Source of the DNA: Cryobacterium arcticum
Lineage (GTDB): Bacteria > Actinomycetota > Actinomycetes > Actinomycetales > Microbacteriaceae
DNA length: 64,000 nucleotides
Direction of reading: 5' to 3'
Assembly: GCF_001679725.1 (NCBI RefSeq)
Contig: NZ_CP016282.1
Location: 1,612,001 to 1,676,000 of the forward strand
The notes under the pieces are model-generated. The model was given only the letters and a program-made list of their open reading frames with translations. It did no database searches and was not told where the DNA came from. A program made the position numbers and the translations under genes. Positions 9,769 through 18,702 of this stretch are shown in pieces (within the stretch, counting starts at the first letter, position 1; every line of letters starts with the position of its first letter).

Positions 9769-10572
9769 TCAGCGGGCGGGGGAGAGGTAGCGTTCCCTCA
9801 GCCGGGGAGTCATCGCGAGGCCTCCGGAGGCGTCGACCGTCAGCACGTCGATGTCCCAGCGCTCGGTGACCAGGTTGAGCGTCTCCGATCCGCCGGCCAG
9901 GATCGCTGTCGCCAGGACGTCGGCCGTGACGATTCCCGCAGCCAGGACGCTGACCTGCACGAGGTCGCCGGACTCCGGCCGGCGCCAGATGTGCTCGCCG
10001 CGCTCCGAGGTGCCCGAGGTGGCTATGGCCCGCCAGCCGCCGGTGAAGGGCACGACGCAGAGCAGGGCGCTGCGGTCGAGCGGGTCGACGATCCCCGCCG
10101 TCCACAGCCCCGCCGTCCCCGCCCCCGGCGTCCCGTCGGGCAGGTTCGCCTCGGCTTCCTGCCCGTCCGAGAGCGTGTCGCCGCCCACGGTGACCAGCCA
10201 GTCCCGCACGCCGGCCTCGTGCAGGAGCCGACCGGCGTCCTCGATGGCCAGGGCCTTGACCACGCCGGAAAGGTCGAGGAGACCGTCCGGGCGGTGCGGG
10301 GTGAAGACGCCCGCGGTGTCGTCCCGCCAGCGCAGGGCGAGTTCGTAGGCGGCGAGCATCGGGGCGCTGGCCCGGGTCAGGCGCTCCGACCCGTCATTGA
10401 TCCGGCTGATCTCCGAATCGGCCCGGTAGAGGCTGAACCGCTGTTCGAGTTCCTCGAAATTGTCGCGCACGGCCTGCAACACGTCACCGCCGGAGCGATC
10501 CGGTGCGGGCGGCGCATCCCGGAAGCGCAGGCTCGCCATGGTCCCCATGGTGGGAAACACCACCGTGGACAC
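9769..10572 (-). CDS. apbE: FAD:protein FMN transferase (ApbE)
   Basis: The 267-residue protein carries the ApbE pattern: TMGTMASLRF at the N-terminus, the acidic DNFEELEQRFSLY helix, the VTVGGD loop, and ATSGTSERGEHIW followed by TADVLATAIL. ApbE transfers FMN from FAD to a Ser or Thr of extracytoplasmic proteins. It has no obvious lipobox. Its gene starts 2 bp after the stop of the FMN-binding-domain gene, and the ferric-reductase-like gene lies before that. Substrate and enzyme therefore appear to be made together. The start is GTG 10572. Confidence 0.93.
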   Translation of the reverse strand: MSTVVFPTMGTMASLRFRDAPPAPDRSGGDVLQAVRDNFEELEQRFSLYRADSEISRINDGSERLTRASAPMLAAYELALRWRDDTAGVFTPHRPDGLLDLSGVVKALAIEDAGRLLHEAGVRDWLVTVGGDTLSDGQEAEANLPDGTPGAGTAGLWTAGIVDPLDRSALLCVVPFTGGWRAIATSGTSERGEHIWRRPESGDLVQVSVLAAGIVTADVLATAILAGGSETLNLVTERWDIDVLTVDASGGLAMTPRLRERYLSPAR

Positions 10573-10574
10573 GG

Positions 10575-11090
10575 TCAGAGCCCGGCCTGGTCGAGGGCCG
10601 ACTGCAACGAGGTGAGATAGGCCTCGCTCGTGTAGGTGGCGCCGGAGACCGTGGAGACCTGGGCGGACTGGGCCGCGAGCACCTCCTGGCGCAGCACCGG
10701 TGCGGCCCGGTTGCTGATCTGCACGGACCTGCCGTCGGCATCCGTGAGCTTGAGGGCGGCGACGTCGGTGATGGCGCCCCCGGCCACGGTGATCTGCACT
10801 TGCACCGACCCGAACCGGGTGGAGGTGCTGCTGCCCGTGAACGTGCCGGAAGGCGCGGCGGGCGCAGCGGGCGCGGCGGTGGCCGCGGGCGCCGAACCGT
10901 TCGACGTGCCGCCGGACGACGGACCGGTCGCCGTCGACGAGCCGGCGGTGGACGGTCCGGCGCTGGTGCCGCCGCCGGAGGAGGCGGACGGAACCGACGT
11001 CATCAAGGCGCTGGGAGCGCCGAGTTGCCAGCCCACCACGAGCACGGCAGCCGACGACAGGATGCTTGCGGCAATAGCGCGTTTTCTCAC
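10575..11090 (-). CDS. Exported FMN-binding domain protein with flavinylation motif
   Basis: The 171-residue product starts at GTG 11090, overlapping the stop of the upstream reductase gene as GTGA. It has an N-terminal membrane segment (RAIAASILSSAAVLVVGW), a Ser/Gly/Ala/Pro-rich linker of about 60 residues and a C-terminal FMN-binding (RnfG/NqrC-like) domain. The flavinylation motif SGATYTS is near the C-terminus, and its Thr is the expected site of covalent FMN attachment by ApbE. It is probably an extracytoplasmic electron carrier that takes electrons from the haem-containing reductase encoded next to it. Confidence 0.88.
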   Translation of the reverse strand: MRKRAIAASILSSAAVLVVGWQLGAPSALMTSVPSASSGGGTSAGPSTAGSSTATGPSSGGTSNGSAPAATAAPAAPAAPSGTFTGSSTSTRFGSVQVQITVAGGAITDVAALKLTDADGRSVQISNRAAPVLRQEVLAAQSAQVSTVSGATYTSEAYLTSLQSALDQAGL

Positions 11091-12547
11091 CAGTCGAACC
11101 TTTCCACGTGGATCTGACGGTCGGCGAGCCCGGCCGCCTTGGCGTCCCGCACCACCAGATCGGTCCAGGCCTGCGGGCCGCAGACGTAGAGGTCGGAGTC
11201 GGTCAGCCGCGGGAACACACTCGAGATGGTGACCCCGGCACTGATCGCCTCGGCGCTCATCCAGGTGTCCACGCCACGCGGCCGGGGTCCGATCATCGAG
11301 TAGATGGCCGAGCCCGCCGTGCGGGACAGCGCGCCGACCTCGTTCCACAGGTAGCTCTGCGACTCGTCGGTTCCGCGCAGCAGCACCGTCGCCTCGCCCC
11401 GACTGAGGGGGGAGTGCTCGAGCAACGAACGGATGGGCGTGATGCCGATGCCGGCCGCCACGACCGCGAGGTGCGGGGAGGTGCGGGCGGCATCCGTGAA
11501 CAGGCCGTACGGGCCCTCGATCGACACCCGCGTGCCCACCGGCACCCGTCCGAGTTCCCGGCTGCCGCGGCCCAGGTCCCGCACGGTGATGCGGGCGCTG
11601 GTGCGCGTGGGCACCGCTGAGAACGAGATCGGGTGCGCGTGCCACCAGGTGCCGGCCGTCCAGAACCGCCAGATGGCGTACTGGCCGCCCGCCGTCTGCA
11701 GCCGGTCGAGGTCGCGGCCGGTCAGGTGGATCGACACCACACCGGGAGCGATTGTCTCGATGCCGGAGACCGTGATCCCGTGCCGGTACGAGCGGATGAC
11801 CGGCAGCACGAAGCGGTACCAGCCGATCGCCCCGAAGGCGAGGACGTAGAGCGCCAGCCAGTAGACCCGCTGCACGGTGCCGTCGGCCAGGACCCCGCCG
11901 GCACTGAGCTGGTGGGGGAGTGCCACCAGCACCGCGGCGTAGCTGAGCAGGTGGATGGCGTGCCAGACCTCGTACGGGAAGCGCCGGCGCACCGCGACGA
12001 GGGACGAGATCACCACGGCCACGAGCAGCCCCACGCCCAGGTAGGCGAAGGCCATATCGGGAGTGGTGAAGAGGGTGACCGTCTCGGCGACCACGTCGAC
12101 ACCGCTGCTGAGCGCATACCCCAGCGTGAGCAGCGCACCGTGCGCGAGGATCAGGTACAGCGCCGGCTTGCCCAGCCGCCGGTGCAGCGCCATCGCCACG
12201 TCCTGACCGACCGTGCGGTCGATCAGCGGGATGCGCGCGGCCAGCACCAGCATGATCAGGATGAGGTCGGTGCCGACGAGCCCGGTCACGATGCCCAGTG
12301 CGGTCACGGCGGATGCCACATCCGTCACGTCGTTCAGACCGCCGTACGCCAGGTACAGCGCCACGGCAAGCGCGACCGAGGTGACCAGGGCCGTGACCAG
12401 GATGTCCGCGGCGCGAAGCCGGCGCCGGGTGCGGATCCGGCGCGCCCGTGCCACCGGCGCCGGAGCGCCCCGGCCGGCCCCCCTGGCGCCGTCCGGCACG
12501 CGGGTCGTCGGTGCGCCGGTGTCGGCACTGGACTGGTGAACGGTCAT
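11087..12547 (-). CDS. Ferric-reductase-like transmembrane protein with FAD/NAD(P) domain
   Basis: The 486-residue protein has an N-terminal six-helix haem domain with spaced His residues (ALHRRLG, LAHGALL, VWHAIHLLSY). A flavodoxin-reductase module follows, with the FAD motif HPISFSA, the nucleotide loop GIGITPIRSLL and a C-terminal YVCGPQAWTD. It should move electrons from cytoplasmic NAD(P)H through FAD and two haems to the outer face. ATG 12547 is chosen because GAGAAG stands just upstream; a longer form starting at 12595 is possible. It leads the operon with the FMN-binding protein and ApbE, so the likely acceptor is the flavinylated domain. Confidence 0.88.
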   Translation of the reverse strand: MTVHQSSADTGAPTTRVPDGARGAGRGAPAPVARARRIRTRRRLRAADILVTALVTSVALAVALYLAYGGLNDVTDVASAVTALGIVTGLVGTDLILIMLVLAARIPLIDRTVGQDVAMALHRRLGKPALYLILAHGALLTLGYALSSGVDVVAETVTLFTTPDMAFAYLGVGLLVAVVISSLVAVRRRFPYEVWHAIHLLSYAAVLVALPHQLSAGGVLADGTVQRVYWLALYVLAFGAIGWYRFVLPVIRSYRHGITVSGIETIAPGVVSIHLTGRDLDRLQTAGGQYAIWRFWTAGTWWHAHPISFSAVPTRTSARITVRDLGRGSRELGRVPVGTRVSIEGPYGLFTDAARTSPHLAVVAAGIGITPIRSLLEHSPLSRGEATVLLRGTDESQSYLWNEVGALSRTAGSAIYSMIGPRPRGVDTWMSAEAISAGVTISSVFPRLTDSDLYVCGPQAWTDLVVRDAKAAGLADRQIHVERFDW

Positions 12548-12708
12548 GGCTCTTCTCGTTTCGGTGGGCAACACGCTCGTGGCGATCTCGGGCACACCAC
12601 AACACTCCCGCGGGATTCTTCGAAGTTTCTTAGCCGTAGGCCCGGTCGGCGACGTACTATCGCGAGTGGGCGTCAGCCGGCGCCCTGCACTGGCTATGGA
12701 GGTTTGCA
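12548..12708. promoter_or_regulatory. Divergent promoter region between the flavin redox operon and the repeat-peptide operon
   Basis: This 161-bp spacer separates two divergent operons. A possible -10 hexamer tactat lies at 12655-12660 for the rightward operon. An 8-bp palindrome cttcgaag sits at 12618-12625, near the middle of the spacer. A strong ribosome-binding site ATGGAGG (12696-12702) precedes GTG 12709. I see no clear DtxR/IdeR box. Confidence 0.35.
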
Positions 12709-12963
12709 GTGGGCATCAACGACGACGACATCACGACATCTGGCCTGGACCCGAACGAGGGCACCGCCGACGGCGGGGCCAACCCTGAGGGCCACGACGG
12801 CGGCGCCGACGGTTCGGCGGACGCCGGCGAAGGCACCGCGGACGGGGGAGCAAACCCCTCCGGTCACGACGGCGGAGCCGACGGCTCCGCATCGGGAGAG
12901 GGCACTGCCGACGGCGGGGCCAACCCGGAAGGGCACGACGGCGGCGCCGACGGATCCGCCTGA
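12709..12963 (+). CDS. Small acidic Gly/Asp-rich protein with three tandem repeats; candidate substrate of the adjacent JmjC oxygenase
   Basis: The 84-residue product starts at GTG 12709 behind a strong ATGGAGG site. After a 16-residue leader (MGINDDDITTSGLDPN) come three copies of a 21-residue unit at residues 17-37, 41-61 and 64-84, each Glu followed by GTADGGANPxGHDGGADGSA (x is E, S, E). The protein ends exactly with the third unit. It has no Cys, no aromatic residue and no membrane segment. Copies 1 and 3 are identical in protein over these units yet differ at seven synonymous codon positions, so the peptide sequence is under selection. The stop overlaps the ATG of the oxygenase gene (TGATG). 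I do not recognise a characterised family. A leader plus repeated core next to a hydroxylase-type enzyme suggests a modified ribosomal peptide; an RTX-like calcium-binding tail is an alternative reading. Confidence 0.85.
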   Translation: MGINDDDITTSGLDPNEGTADGGANPEGHDGGADGSADAGEGTADGGANPSGHDGGADGSASGEGTADGGANPEGHDGGADGSA

Positions 12964-14210
12964 TGAGCGCCGGGCAGCGCGGGCCGAGCGATCGGCCCGC
13001 GCTTGCGCGGTTGCTGCCCATCTCGCCGGACGCGTTCGCGGCCGAGTACTGGGACCAGACGGCGTTGTTCACCCGCGCCGCCGAACTGGGCGACGGGCTC
13101 GGCGACCTGTTCAGCGCCGACGCCGTCGATGACCTCGTCACCCGCAGGGGCCTTCGCACCCCGTTCGCCCGGATGGCCAGGGCCGGCGTGCTGCTCGACC
13201 CCGCGCGCTACACGGCGCCCGGCGGGCTGGGCGCCGAGATCGCCGACCAGGTGAGCGCCGACAAGGTGCTCGACGAACTTAGCGGCGGCGCCACCCTGGT
13301 CCTGCAGGGGCTGCATCGCACGTGGCCGCCGCTGGCCGAATTCGCCCGCGCCCTCGCCGCCGACCTGGGCCATCCGGTGCAGGTGAACGCCTACATCACC
13401 CCGGCCGCCGAGCGGGGATTCGATCCCCACTACGACGTGCACGACGTCTTCGTGATCCAGGTGCAGGGGGAGAAGCGCTGGCGCATCCACCCGCCCGTTC
13501 ATGCCCGGCCCCTTCGCGATCAGCCGTGGACCGGGTATCGCGCCGCGGTCGAGGGTGCGGCAGAGAAGGTGCCGGCCATTGACGAGGTCTTCCGGCCCGG
13601 TGACGTGCTCTACCTCCCGCGCGGCTGGATCCACTCCGCGACGGCTCTGGGCGGCACCTCCATCCACCTGACCATCGGGGTTGCCGCCCTCACCCGGCAC
13701 GACGTGCTGCGCGAGGCCCTGGCCAGCGCGACCGCCGACGAGACGCTGCGCGCGGCGCTGCCGGTGGGCGTCGACCTGACGGATGCCGCGACGGTCGCCG
13801 CGCTGGTGAGCGCCGCCGTCGACGACCTGACCCGCTACGCCCACGGTGAGCACCACGACCTGGGCGACACCGTCGGGCGGCGCCTGCACACGAGGGTGCG
13901 TGACTCGGCCAGGCCCGAACCGATCGCCCCGCTCGCCACGAGCGCTGCTGCGGCCGCATTGCACGAGGCCACGACGGTGAGCCTGCGCCGCCAGCTCGAT
14001 GCCAGGCTCGATCACGGGACGGATGCCGGCACCGTGTCGCTGGTGCTGCCGGACAAACGCGTGACGCTGCCGGCGGAGGCCAGCGACGCCCTGGCCCAGG
14101 TGCTCACGGGCCAGACCACGCAGGCCGGCGGTCTGGCCGGGCTGGACTCGGCGTCGTCCCTGGTCGTCGCCCGGCGCCTCGTGCGCGAGGGCGTTCTGGT
14201 CGTGCGGTGA
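12963..14210 (+). CDS. JmjC/cupin-domain 2-oxoglutarate-dependent oxygenase (ROX-like)
   Basis: The 415-residue protein has the JmjC fold signature of bacterial ribosomal-oxygenase-like proteins (YcfD/NO66 group). An iron-binding H156-Y-D158 stands in FDPHYDVHDVF, with QVQGEKRWRIH after it and the distal His224 in LYLPRGWIHSA. A winged-helix-like C-terminal region (about 290-415) follows, also as in that group. These enzymes hydroxylate the beta-carbon of His, Arg or similar residues in proteins. Here the gene is translationally coupled on both sides: its ATG overlaps the stop of the repeat-peptide gene, and its TGA overlaps the GTG of the next gene. The peptide repeats contain Asp, Asn and His, so hydroxylation of that peptide is a natural hypothesis. 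A ribosomal-protein substrate remains possible. Confidence 0.88.
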   Translation: MSAGQRGPSDRPALARLLPISPDAFAAEYWDQTALFTRAAELGDGLGDLFSADAVDDLVTRRGLRTPFARMARAGVLLDPARYTAPGGLGAEIADQVSADKVLDELSGGATLVLQGLHRTWPPLAEFARALAADLGHPVQVNAYITPAAERGFDPHYDVHDVFVIQVQGEKRWRIHPPVHARPLRDQPWTGYRAAVEGAAEKVPAIDEVFRPGDVLYLPRGWIHSATALGGTSIHLTIGVAALTRHDVLREALASATADETLRAALPVGVDLTDAATVAALVSAAVDDLTRYAHGEHHDLGDTVGRRLHTRVRDSARPEPIAPLATSAAAAALHEATTVSLRRQLDARLDHGTDAGTVSLVLPDKRVTLPAEASDALAQVLTGQTTQAGGLAGLDSASSLVVARRLVREGVLVVR

Positions 14211-15232
14211 GCCAGCCGGCGGGAGGGCCGACCGAACCGGTCGACGCGGCCCGGGTGATCGAACCGGCCCGTGGCTGGCTGCCCTGCAGCGACAGGTCCC
14301 TCGAACGCGACGACCCGCTGCCCGGCACCGCCGGTTACGGTGAGCGGTGGTTCCTCGTGGAGATCGACGGTGCGTGGGGCACCCATGCGTTCCTGCAGTC
14401 CCCGCTCGAACCGGCGCTCGGCCGGGCCTTGGTCACCCGGATCGAGTCCGCCGGTATCCGGCCACTGGCCATCCGCCGCACCGGCCGCACCGCCCACGAG
14501 CGGCGGGCCCAGGCCAGTTGGCGGTGGGCCGCGGTGGATGCCCGGCCCGGCCACGAGCAGATCCGCTGGGGCGCGGTGTCCGACCCCGCGGAGCTCCTCA
14601 CGGTGCCGCTGGACGGGGCCGGCGGTGAGCCGTCGACCGAGCCGCTCATCTGCGTGTGCACGCACGCACGCCACGACCAGTGCTGCGCCGTGCGCGGGCG
14701 CCCGGTGGTCACAGCCCTCGCCCTGGCCCACCCGGACGCCACCTGGGAATGCTCCCACCTGGGCGGCGACAGGTTCGCGGCCACGCTCATCCTCTTCCCG
14801 CACGGCCTGTACTACGGCCGGATGAGCGCCCAGGAGGCGCCAGCACTCATCGACCGGTATCGGGCCGGACTGATCGAACCCGGCCGCTTCCGCGGGCGCA
14901 GCTCGCTGCCGAACGTCGTGCAGGCCGCGGCCGCCTTCGCCGCCCGGGAATTCGGTGACGACCGTGTAGACGCCTTCGCCTACAGGTCCTGGACGGAGTC
15001 GGCCGGAGTGCACAGTGTCTACTTCGATCACGCATCCGCAGGGCCCGCACCCGCGTCGGCCGTCCAGCCGGTCACCGTCCGCGTCGTCGAGACCCTCTCC
15101 GAGCCGCTCCTCAGCACCTGCGCCGCGACCACGGCGCGCCCGGTGCGCCAGTTCCGGCTGGACTCCATCGACCGTGCCGTGCCGGCACCCGAGCCGCCCC
15201 TGGAGACGCCGGTGGAACCACCCGTCGAGTAG
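14207..15232 (+). CDS. Sucrase/ferredoxin-like (Apd1-type) [2Fe-2S] protein
   Basis: The 341-residue product starts at GTG 14207, overlapping the oxygenase stop as GTGA. Its central region shows the sucraseferredoxin-like pattern: C149-V-C151-T-H153-ARHDQ-C159-C160, then C182-S-H184-LGGDRFA and a LFPHGLYYGRM strand. In yeast Apd1 a thioredoxin-like domain of this family binds a [2Fe-2S] cluster with two Cys and two His. The second His of the Apd1 HxGGH motif is Asp188 here, so the ligand set differs or is drawn from the extra Cys and His residues. The C-terminus is a proline-rich tail. Its place as third gene suggests it supplies or removes electrons for the peptide-oxygenase system; this is inference. 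Confidence 0.8.
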   Translation: MSQPAGGPTEPVDAARVIEPARGWLPCSDRSLERDDPLPGTAGYGERWFLVEIDGAWGTHAFLQSPLEPALGRALVTRIESAGIRPLAIRRTGRTAHERRAQASWRWAAVDARPGHEQIRWGAVSDPAELLTVPLDGAGGEPSTEPLICVCTHARHDQCCAVRGRPVVTALALAHPDATWECSHLGGDRFAATLILFPHGLYYGRMSAQEAPALIDRYRAGLIEPGRFRGRSSLPNVVQAAAAFAAREFGDDRVDAFAYRSWTESAGVHSVYFDHASAGPAPASAVQPVTVRVVETLSEPLLSTCAATTARPVRQFRLDSIDRAVPAPEPPLETPVEPPVE

Positions 15233-15494: not shown

Positions 15495-17762
15495 ATGACC
15501 GTTACAGATGGCATCAGAAGCGACCAGCGCGGTCTCGCAGAAGCAGGCCCGGCTGAATTCGTCAGCGGCCCGTGGCAGGACTCGATCAATCTGCGCGACT
15601 TCATCCAGCGCAACTACACGCCGTACACCGGCGACGCAAGCTTCCTCGAAGGCCCCACCGAGCGCACCACAGGCATCTGGGCCAAGCTGTCCGCGATGTT
15701 CCCTGTCGAGCGCGAGAAGGGCGTCTATGACATCGACGCCACGACGCCCTCGTCCATCACCGCGCACAAGCCCGGCTACATCGACAAGGACAACGAGGTC
15801 ATCGTCGGCCTCCAGACCGACGCGCCGCTCAAGCGCGCGATCATGCCCTTCGGTGGCTGGCGCATGGTCGCCACCTCGCTCGAGACCTACGGCTACCCCG
15901 TGTCGCCCGAGCTCGAGACGATCTTCACCGACTACCGCAAGACCCACAACACCGCGGTCTTCGACGTCTACCCTCCCGGTGTGCGTCGTGCGCGCAGCAG
16001 CCACCTGATCACGGGCCTGCCGGATGCCTACGGCCGCGGCCGCATCATCGGTGACTACCGTCGTGTGGCCCTGTACGGCATCGACGCCCTGGTCGCCGGC
16101 AAGAAGAACGACCGCGCCGAGCTGGACATGGAGCCCTCGACCGAGGACATCATCCGTGCCCGCGAGGAGAACTCGGAGCAGATCCGGGCTCTCAAGGAAC
16201 TCGCCCAGATGGCAGCCAGCTACGGCTCGGACATCTCCAAGCCCGCCACCACCGCCAAGGAAGCCGTTCAGTGGCTGTACTTCGCGTACCTCGGTGCGGT
16301 CAAGGAGCAGAACGGTGCGGCAATGTCGTTCGGCCGCAACGCGGCCTTCCTCGACGCCTACATCGAGCGCGACCTCGCCGCCGGAACCCTGACCGAGTCC
16401 GGTGCCCAGGAACTCATCGACGACCTCGTCATCAAGCTGCGCATCGTGCGGTTCCTCCGCACCCCGGAGTACGACGAGATCTTCGCCGGAGACCCCACCT
16501 GGGTCACCGAGTCGCTCGCCGGCATCGGTGAAGACGGTCGCCCGCTCGTCACCAAGACCGCGTTCCGCTTCCTGCAGACCCTGTACAACGTGGGCCCCGC
16601 ACCCGAGCCGAACCTGACCGTTCTGTGGAGCGACAAGCTGCCCGAGGGCTTCAAGCGCTTTTGCGCCCAGGTCTCGATCGACACGTCGGCCATCCAGTAC
16701 GAGTCCGACGAACTCATCCGCAACGAGATGGGTGACGACGCCGCGATCGCGTGCTGCGTCTCCCCGATGCGGGTCGGTAAGCAGATGCAGTTCTTCGGGG
16801 CCCGCGTCAACGCCGTCAAGGCGCTGCTGTACTCGATCAACGGCGGCAAGGACGAGGTGTCCGGCAAGCAGATCGCCCCGGCCACCGCGCCGAACACCGA
16901 CGAGATCCTCGACTACGACACCGTCTTCCCGGCCTACCTCGAGACCCTCGAGTGGCTCGCCGAGACCTACGTCACCGCGCTGAACTGCATCCACTACATG
17001 CACGACAAGTACGCGTATGAGCGCCTCGAGATGGCACTGCACGACAAGGAGATCATCCGCACCCTGGCCTGCGGCATCGCCGGCCTGAGCGTGGTCGCCG
17101 ACTCGCTGTCCGCCATCAAGTACGCCACGGTCCGTCCGGTCCGCGACGAGACCGGCCTGGTTGTCGACTACACCGTTGAGGGCGAATTCCCCACCTTCGG
17201 CAACGACGACGACCGCGTCGACGTCATTGCGGTGGACGTCATGGAACGCTTCATGACGATGATCCGCAAGCACCCGACCTACCGCGACGCGATCCACACC
17301 CAGTCGATCCTGACGATCACGTCCAACGTGGTCTACGGCAAGGCCACCGGCAACACGCCCGATGGTCGCCGCAAGGGTGAGCCGTTCGCACCGGGCGCCA
17401 ACCCGATGAACGGCCGCGACACACACGGTATGCTCGCGTCGGCACTCAGTGTCGCCAAGCTTCCGTACAGTGAAGCGCAGGACGGCATCTCGCTGACCAA
17501 CACTGTCGTTCCGAGCGGCCTCGGCCACACCAAGGACGAGCAGATCACCAGCCTGGTCGGCCTGCTCGACGCGTTCACGTCGGCCACCGGCTACCACCTG
17601 AACGTCAACGTGCTCAACAAAGAGACCCTCGAAGACGCCATGCTGCACCCGGAGAACTACCCGCAGCTGACGATCCGTGTTTCCGGTTACGCCGTGAACT
17701 TCGTCCGCCTCACCCGCGAGCAGCAGATGGATGTCATCAGCCGCACGTTCCACTCGCACTAA
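15495..17762 (+). CDS. pflB: Formate C-acetyltransferase (pyruvate formate-lyase)
   Basis: The 755-residue enzyme matches E. coli PflB in length. It has the adjacent catalytic cysteines Cys420-Cys421 in AIACCVSPM and the glycyl-radical site Gly731 in [13 protein letters not shown] near the C-terminus. It converts pyruvate and CoA to acetyl-CoA and formate under anoxia and is cut at the glycyl radical by oxygen. ATG 15495 stands behind AAGGAGAG at 15479-15486. The activase gene follows 46 bp downstream. A dyad gactgg-N12-ccagtc at 15433-15456 and a TTCACAA half-site at 15363-15369 lie upstream and may bind a redox regulator. Complete pfl operons are uncommon in aerobic actinobacteria. Confidence 0.97.
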
Positions 17763-17784: not shown

Positions 17785-17844
17785 GGCAACGCTAGGTAGG
17801 ACGAGACCATGACCGCGATCAACCTCGGCTTCCCTAGCGTTGCC
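17785..17844 (+). repeat. Perfect 12-bp inverted repeat enclosing the pflA ribosome-binding site and start codon
   Basis: The arms ggcaacgctagg (17785-17796) and cctagcgttgcc (17833-17844) are exact complements. The 36-nt loop between them holds the GTAGGACGAG region and ATG 17809. In mRNA the stem would place the pflA initiation region in a closed loop, which could tune activase translation relative to pflB. Confidence 0.7.
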
Positions 17845-18702
17845 TGTCCTGTTGTAGAACTTTCCGGAGAGCACGTCGACCTGTCGGCGCCCGTCTCCGA
17901 CGACGTCAGCGCCCTCAACGACGCCGACCGCAAGGCCGAACTGCACACCCTCGAAATGAAGGCGATCCGGGAAGGCACCGTCGCCAGTGTGCACTCCTGG
18001 GAGCTGGTGACCGCCGTCGACGGCCCCGGCACCCGCATGACCCTGTTCCTCTCCGGCTGCCTGCTGCGCTGCCAGTACTGCCACAACCCGGACACCTGGA
18101 AGATGCGCGACGGCCTGGTCACGCCCATCGACGAACTCGTCGCCCGGATGACCCGCTACCTCGGCGTTTTCAAGGCCACCAACGGCGGCCTCACCATCTC
18201 GGGCGGCGAGCCGCTCATGCAGCCCGCCTTCGTGAAGCGGATGTTCAAGGAAGCGCACGCCCTGGGCGTGCACACCACCCTGGACACCTCCGGCTACCTC
18301 GGCAAGAGCGCCTCGGACGAACTCCTCGACAACGTCGACCTGGTTCTGCTCGACGTGAAGTCGGGCCTGCCCGACACCTACAAGACCGTCACCGGCCGCG
18401 AACTCGCGCCCACCATCGCCTTCGGCGACCGGCTCGCCGAGCGGGGCATCCCGGTCTGGGTGCGCTTCGTCCTGGTGCCCGGACTCACCGACGCCGTCGA
18501 CAACGTCGAAGCCGTCGTGGACATCGTGAAGAGCTGGCCCAATGTGCAGCGTGTGGAGGTGCTGCCCTTCCACCAGATGGGCGAGGACAAGTGGGACCGC
18601 CTGAGCATCCCGTACCCCCTGCACGGCGTGCACCCGCCGGAGAACGAGCTGTTGAACCGCGTGCGTGGCCAGTTCGAAGCCCGGGGACTGACCGTCTTCT
18701 AG
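17809..18702 (+). CDS. pflA: Pyruvate formate-lyase-activating enzyme (radical SAM)
   Basis: The 297-residue protein carries the radical SAM cluster motif C84-LLR-C88-QY-C91-HNPDTW. It also has ISGGEP for SAM binding, LDTSGYL, DLVLLDVKS and the C-terminal PYPLHGVHPP found in PflA. It uses a [4Fe-4S] cluster and SAM to abstract hydrogen from Gly731 of PflB. The first ~55 residues, before TVASVHSWELVTAVDGPGTR, are an extension not present in E. coli PflA (246 residues). A later start at the Met in LEMKAIREG would give a standard-length protein, so the start is uncertain. Confidence 0.95.
   Translation: MTAINLGFPSVACPVVELSGEHVDLSAPVSDDVSALNDADRKAELHTLEMKAIREGTVASVHSWELVTAVDGPGTRMTLFLSGCLLRCQYCHNPDTWKMRDGLVTPIDELVARMTRYLGVFKATNGGLTISGGEPLMQPAFVKRMFKEAHALGVHTTLDTSGYLGKSASDELLDNVDLVLLDVKSGLPDTYKTVTGRELAPTIAFGDRLAERGIPVWVRFVLVPGLTDAVDNVEAVVDIVKSWPNVQRVEVLPFHQMGEDKWDRLSIPYPLHGVHPPENELLNRVRGQFEARGLTVF

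Follow-up and report, generated by a model that had tools for sequence, protein, structure and literature searches.

The window analysed here is a stretch of 64,000 nucleotides from Cryobacterium arcticum (contig NZ_CP016282.1, positions 1,612,001 to 1,676,000), whose genome is 4.35 Mb in size. It carries an operon of three overlapping genes, all on the + strand, which open reading frame (ORF) analysis resolves into a small Asp-rich repeat peptide, a JmjC oxygenase and a Suc_Fer protein. The closest relatives at this locus are from Cryobacterium. The features of the locus are:

12653..12663, + strand: promoter-like block CGTACTATCGC with a -10-like TACTAT at 12655-12660; a promoter function is suggested by its conservation.
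12668..12685, + strand: inverted repeat GGGCGTC-AGCC-GGCGCCC, paired by eye, presumably in the 5' leader RNA; candidate operator or hairpin.
12698..12702, + strand: ribosome-binding site (RBS) GGAGG, from sequence.
12709..12963, + strand: peptide gene with a GTG start, 84 residues, the presumed substrate (ORF reading, homologues and selection).
12709..12756, + strand: leader segment of 16 residues, MGINDDDITTSGLDPN, the presumed recognition sequence (motif common to distant homologues with other cores).
12757..12960, + strand: core of three EGTADGGANPxGHDGGADGSA units with spacers DAG and SG (sequence).
12963..14210, + strand: JmjC 2-oxoglutarate oxygenase with the ribosomal-oxygenase fold, 415 residues (PF08007 and structure comparison).
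13935..14207, + strand: C-terminal winged-helix domain of the oxygenase that resembles a RiPP recognition element (RRE), where RiPP denotes a ribosomally synthesized and post-translationally modified peptide; the presumed leader reader, with K365 and R405 (structure comparison and joint decay).
14207..15232, + strand: Suc_Fer (thioredoxin-like ferredoxin) protein, 341 residues, accessory (PF06999 and adjacency).

The TGA of the peptide gene (12961-12963) shares one base with the ATG of the oxygenase gene, and the oxygenase TGA (14208-14210) lies across the Suc_Fer GTG (14207-14209) to give an overlap of four bases. These coordinates bear out the initial annotation, made from the DNA letters, which had described a three-gene overlapping operon. 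Its description of the peptide as a leader plus three 21-residue repeats that ends exactly at the third repeat likewise agrees with the translated frame. Each 21-residue unit has three Asp, one Asn and one His, and the peptide lacks Cys, Phe and Arg. Searches of Pfam and NCBIfam give no match at E<=1 for this peptide or for the other peptides of the family that were scanned.

Two sets of loci are compared below: the best 80 from a JmjC search that finds 304 relatives in named genomes, and 81 loci from whole genomes. The peptide gene itself could be questioned, as a GC-rich shadow frame or low-complexity artefact beside an ordinary cupin gene. GC-rich DNA yields many long frames, and the only name given to a listed relative of the peptide, besides hypothetical protein, is 'BatC protein' (Leifsonia poae). 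However, units 1 and 3 are separated by seven synonymous and no non-synonymous differences, and the ratio of non-synonymous to synonymous change (pN/pS) between the window's peptide and seven Cryobacterium orthologues is 0.09-0.22. The frame thus encodes a protein that is subject to strong purifying selection. All 81 peptide starts examined have an RBS-like 4-mer (loose rule) ahead of them. Of 41,161 background positions in these loci, 357 (0.9%) have an Asp-rich or DGG-repeat frame ending nearby. The pN/pS values, RBS and background counts rule out a chance or shadow frame, and we regard the notion that this is no gene as barely credible.

The mechanical rule behind the background count accepts a frame with at least 7 Asp in its last 50 residues and a small/acidic make-up, or with three DGG[AS]. 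Among loci that can be tested, the rule is passed upstream of the JmjC gene in 77 of 78 from the named set and 74 of 78 from the whole-genome set. Upstream sequence is lacking for L038, L081, L122, L139 and L140, which fall outside the test, and L123, whose gene runs off its contig, is unscored and on reading has a leader peptide. The misses are L043 (a run of N), L112, L136, L137 and L138. The last three are remote JmjC homologues (E about 1e-28) that also lack a neighbouring Suc_Fer gene; one is encoded elsewhere in the L137 and L138 genomes. A plain rule of 7 Asp in 50 passes 62 of 78 named and 66 of 78 whole-genome loci, to which the final rule adds DGG[AS] repeats and a looser make-up. 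Demanding 9 Asp in 50 proved too strict, with no more than 14 and 47 of the 78 loci in each set, respectively, being accepted.

The peptide precedes the JmjC gene in all 80 named loci. It is complete in 76 and cut in four, of which three (L029, L038 and L081) start inside the peptide and the fourth is the run of N in L043. Three units are present in 71 of these loci and two in five, with four incomplete, and 73 of the 76 complete peptides end in GSA, GTA or GAA. The initial annotation had tied its proposal to conservation of the trio beyond this strain and to repeat numbers that vary while the pairing holds, and both are seen. A search with the peptide finds 147 relatives at E<=1e-3. Among the best 120 of these are peptides from Leifsonia, Mycobacterium, Mycolicibacterium, Salinispora, Actinoplanes, Phytohabitans and Rhodococcus. 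A profile of distant T/D-type peptides gives 280 matches at E<=1e-6, and the named sources among the 120 of these that are listed are Actinomycetota or soil metagenome.

Genome samples give the same picture. In a sample of the phylum (296 genomes), the peptide profile matches eight genomes (E<=1e-6) and the JmjC gene adjoins in all eight; JmjC relatives (E<=1e-20) occur in 42 genomes. In a sample of the class, also of 296 genomes, the profile matches 26 (E<=1e-5), with the JmjC gene directly downstream on the same strand in 26 of 26. This sample has 51 genomes with a JmjC gene (E<=1e-40), and all 25 that lack a profile match were read. Diverged Asp-rich repeat peptides lie upstream in 23. The other two (G139, locus L106, and G543, locus L177) have an upstream ORF that is acidic and non-repetitive and passes the mechanical rule. 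Peptide and oxygenase therefore form a conserved pair, with the peptide as the likely substrate of the enzyme.

Two side observations concern this pairing. The acidic ORF of L106 ends DDPELSGADLPEDQADGQGPTVEPGA, and both L106 and L177 lack an adjacent Suc_Fer gene and have a weak RRE-like domain (scores 19.3 and 20.6), a possible case of substrate switching. A 550-base metagenome contig, P0098, encodes a 138-residue ORF in which a JmjC-like N-terminus leads into DGG repeats, and may be either a real fusion or an assembly artefact.

Peptides upstream of the JmjC gene in other classes keep a short motif, [LI]xD[DE][DE][IM], often with a Thr soon after. The cores behind it differ and include DADGTDGDATDGTDGDA, DGGADGGADGG and two copies of PTEDDENLDAPGEHSQDTGDE. 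A common leader motif followed by differing cores is a feature of the precursors of RiPP pathways. When full frames are used, 123 of 153 peptides have the strict motif and 138 have it in strict or loose form; sequences cut to 100 residues gave a strict count of 121. Some of the 30 peptides without the strict motif are cut by contig ends. Locus L151 carries the leader MSLEDDDIRSGH.

The last 45 residues of 75 whole-genome cores consist of 30% Gly, 24% Asp and 20% Ala. His is absent from 37 of these cores, Asn from 56 and both from 34, and 734 of the 826 Asp that have a next residue are followed by Gly, Ala, Ser or Thr. On a tree of 89 enzymes, T/D-type cores occupy one part and positions near the base, and DGG-type cores fall in the Actinomycetia part. 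Core type, as labelled by a rough rule, requires 15 changes on this tree.

Further core types occur in single lineages. A long peptide in genome G279 (L112 / L141) has SADGTDQGVxGGTYGPRDAS repeats behind a DDDI leader and so includes Tyr and Arg; this genome, 93% complete, has no PF06999 match. Genome G113 (L133) combines the leader SITDNDITSG with two copies of PTEDDENLDAPGEHSQDTGDE. Some class-sample cores, such as those of L172 and L176, are nearly pure (DGGA)n with a dozen or more units.

The oxygenase matches PF08007 (JmjC_2, E=2.2e-28), and its relatives are annotated as cupins, 'L16 Arg81 hydroxylase' or 'NO66'. Alignment with NO66 places the iron ligands at H156, D158 and H224; this HxD...H triad is intact here and unchanged across enzymes while cores vary. 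NO66 and MINA53 are the nearest solved structures over the whole length, and FIH is also a structural relative. The fold is of the ribosomal-oxygenase type, including its C-terminal winged helix. By structure comparison this C-terminal domain resembles RREs, as does that of the ribosomal oxygenases. The link to RREs rests on structure because a sequence search for a PqqD/RRE relationship gave only a match of two C-terminal fragments to Pfam DBD_HTH, at E 0.17 and below the cut-off of that family.

Loss or reduction of the leader motif is accompanied by decay of this domain, and not of the catalytic part, in one clade of 12 enzymes and in one separate case. In the clade (Shimodaira-Hasegawa-like approximate likelihood ratio test, SH-aLRT, 99), all 12 peptides fail the strict leader motif and 10 also fail the loose one. 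Remnants are NDDDT in L102 and SDDT in L172; both loci were scored as leader-less in the profile and column comparisons, and the odds were the same after a full-frame check. L140 is contig-cut. Scored with a C-terminal-domain profile built solely from 27 distant leader-bearing enzymes, 39 leader-bearing enzymes of the Actinomycetia have a median of 62.3 (29.6-81.0) and the 12-enzyme clade one of 14.3 (4.8-24.1). For the catalytic part the scores are 289.5 and 274.0, respectively. Elsewhere in the tree, L178 has a shortened leader, MQDDELET, and a C-terminal score of 4.9. L174 has no leader and a score of 30.7.

Single alignment columns tell the same story. Among columns conserved at 80% in 67 leader-bearing enzymes, the other 13 enzymes have lost none of 73 in the catalytic part and five of 12 in the C-terminal domain, two of the five being deleted positions. 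At 70% conservation the losses are one of 91 and seven of 15. Position 365, beside a strand of the domain, is Lys or Arg in 61 of the 67 leader-bearing enzymes and in none of the 13 others. These losses amount to about two independent events rather than thirteen. An acidic leader motif suits a basic reader, and the joint decay supports the presumed binding of the peptide leader by the C-terminal domain. The initial annotation had mentioned neither the leader motif nor the RRE-like domain, and the joint decay of the two is likewise additional to it.

The third protein matches PF06999 (Suc_Fer-like, E=6e-17), and C27, C151, C159, C160, H184 and C305 are conserved over 43 sequences. It resembles Apd1 and other sucraseferredoxins in its PF06999 match, its invariant Cys and one His. 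The ligand motif of the Apd1 type has two His. In contrast, the motif SHxGGD found here keeps His184 and has Asp188 in place of the second His (Asp in at least 90% of the 43), and Cys27 and Cys305 are additional invariant residues.

The Suc_Fer protein is also not obligatory. Its gene is the next one on the same strand in 75 of 80 named loci and in 63 of the 81 from whole genomes. By rule the counts are 74 and 61; L050, L120 and L171, truncated by the end of a contig or locus, make up the difference. The named loci without an adjacent copy are L013, L053, L068, L073 and L077. A genome-wide check for PF06999 (E<=1e-5) in 18 genomes gives a match in 12, which in G062 is the adjacent gene, and none in six. 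Three of these six (G204, G466 and G278) are rated 100% complete and keep both peptide and oxygenase, so the Suc_Fer protein is not required. No alternative partner is evident in the ORFs of L145 and L146, two Suc_Fer-less loci. By this distribution the protein is a frequent, dispensable partner, and the idea that the iron-sulfur protein serves as an obligatory redox partner is unsupported.

The gene structure, the selection on the peptide, the phylum-wide pairing, the leader/core architecture, the JmjC site, the RRE-like fold and the joint decay observed here are brought together by a reading that we consider probable, that of a leader-guided, RiPP-like peptide-modification pair. The small peptide would be the precursor. 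Its leader segment, [LI]xDDD[IM], would dock on the RRE-like winged helix of the oxygenase, and the JmjC centre, with Fe(II), 2-oxoglutarate and O2, would then hydroxylate Asp residues of the DG/DA-rich repeats, with the beta carbon as the likeliest position. Asp seems a better candidate site than His or Asn because 34 of 75 cores have neither. With many cores composed largely of Asp, Gly, Ala, Ser and Thr, beta-hydroxylation of Asp would be the simplest chemistry. The modified acidic peptide would probably stay in the cell, and its simplest role might be that of a metal-binding (iron or calcium) or an oxygen/iron-responsive peptide. The metal-related role is a guess prompted by the chemistry of beta-hydroxy-aspartate. 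In most lineages, though not all, the Suc_Fer protein would be an accessory for electron supply or metal handling.

Retention in the cell appears likelier than export as an antibiotic because the flanks share no transporter or protease family. In a comparison of 35 loci (frames of at least 90 residues, flanks of about 1.5-4 kb, shorter at contig ends), no conserved transporter, protease or ferric reductase lies beside the trio. Outside the trio no family is common to more than three of the 35, and further genes were therefore rejected as parts of the system; the best-ranked flank families are shadow frames of the trio itself.

The competing explanations differ in what the enzyme modifies, if anything. 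NO66, MINA53 and YcfD act on ribosomal proteins, and the closeness of NO66 and MINA53 over the whole length, winged helix included, would agree with an enzyme of this kind, with the acidic peptide serving as regulator or assembly factor and not as substrate. We give this little credence, as the Asp-rich peptide is paired with the enzyme in nearly all testable loci across the phylum, core types largely follow the enzyme tree, and the C-terminal domain decays where the leader is lost or reduced. Alternatively, the peptide might be modified at His, the residue hydroxylated by NO66 and MINA53, or at Asn, the target of FIH. Each unit in the window has one of each at fixed places (NPxGHDGG), and the enzyme is structurally related to FIH and to the ribosomal His hydroxylases. 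The initial annotation had listed the Asp, Asn and His of the repeats when proposing them as the oxygenase substrate. The conserved pairing supports a substrate role for the repeats, but neither Asn nor His is common to the cores in general. The iron ligands stay the same across enzymes while 34 of 75 cores have neither residue in their last 45 positions, and in poly-DGGA and DADGTDGDA cores Asp is the usual hydroxylation target that remains besides Ser and Thr. A His or Asn site is thus unlikely. In a further alternative, the peptide is not modified and binds the oxygenase and the iron-sulfur protein as an acidic metal buffer, an iron chaperone or an inhibitor. It is very Asp-rich and conserved, is encoded beside iron proteins and has no processing genes nearby in the 35-locus comparison. 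However, differing cores behind a common short leader fit the logic of a substrate better, and the RRE-like domain decays together with the leader, which makes an unmodified peptide improbable.

Upstream of the operon, the promoter-like block is identical or one base off in eight Cryobacterium loci, the window included. The inverted-repeat block is largely kept in the same eight, and sequence farther upstream is not. A scan for sigma-70 promoters and terminators gave no match. A divergent ferric-reductase-like membrane protein is encoded at 11087-12595 (- strand), and an ORF downstream of it, at 9769-10572 (- strand), is ApbE-like by eye. These genes form a redox or iron neighbourhood that is not common to the flanks of relatives, and the ferric-reductase-like gene was rejected as a member of the system on the 35-locus comparison. 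After the trio come a pyruvate formate-lyase (15495-17762, + strand; PF02901, PF01228) and, by eye, its activating enzyme (17809-18702, + strand). An oxygen-sensitive glycyl radical enzyme thus adjoins an oxygen-using enzyme at this locus.

Several known systems share parts of this design. NO66, MINA53 and YcfD have the same whole fold, with winged helix and iron ligands; unlike them, the enzyme described here is preceded by the gene for a cognate Asp-rich peptide. Bufferins are peptide metallophores that rely on Cys and on multinuclear non-heme iron-dependent oxidative enzymes (MNIOs). They are likewise small ribosomal peptides with an O2- and iron-dependent maturation and resemble the present system in a possible metal role, but the present peptide lacks Cys, and there is no conserved MNIO gene next to its own.

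RiPP pathways that use JmjC enzymes are already known. According to excerpts of two reports, BipG and BpmG (JmjC) and PbsQ (cupin-like) hydroxylate ornithine in precursors of the biphenomycin type (PMC12257519, PMC12707348). In these excerpts, as here, a JmjC or cupin-like oxygenase shares a cluster with a ribosomal precursor; there, ornithine lies in an FRF-type core, and an MNIO, an arginase, a B12-radical SAM enzyme and a TldD protease take part. The precursor described here is instead Asp-rich and repetitive, without Phe or Arg, and no such gene is conserved nearby in the 35 loci. Excerpts of Bregman et al. 2025 (PMC12710340) report that fish and algal JmjC proteins of family PF08007 carry RRE-like domains, the same combination as in the present enzyme, and place the closest bacterial homologues in RiPP-like contexts. 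A precursor family, a leader motif, a Suc_Fer partner and joint decay are absent from these excerpts. Among the matches listed from open-licence literature, no paper concerns an Asp-repeat peptide with a JmjC enzyme, and the pair looks widespread and so far undescribed.

If the leader-guided reading is true, widespread bacterial JmjC enzymes now named cupin, 'L16 Arg81 hydroxylase' or 'NO66' would gain a defined substrate. A JmjC/RRE-type class of peptide modification with a simple, deeply conserved precursor would be added to those known, along with a two-gene system in which to study how a ribosomal-oxygenase fold acquired the ability to read a leader. Through the joint decay, specific residues (DDDI, K365 and R405) become directly testable. 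A broader proposal, which we put forward as speculative, is that of a phylum-wide intracellular RiPP system in which a ribosomally templated poly-hydroxyaspartate serves as a multidentate metal ligand. Given that the reaction depends on Fe(II), 2-oxoglutarate and O2, iron/oxygen status would be reported or buffered by the hydroxylation state, and the peptide would have a housekeeping function rather than being a secreted product.

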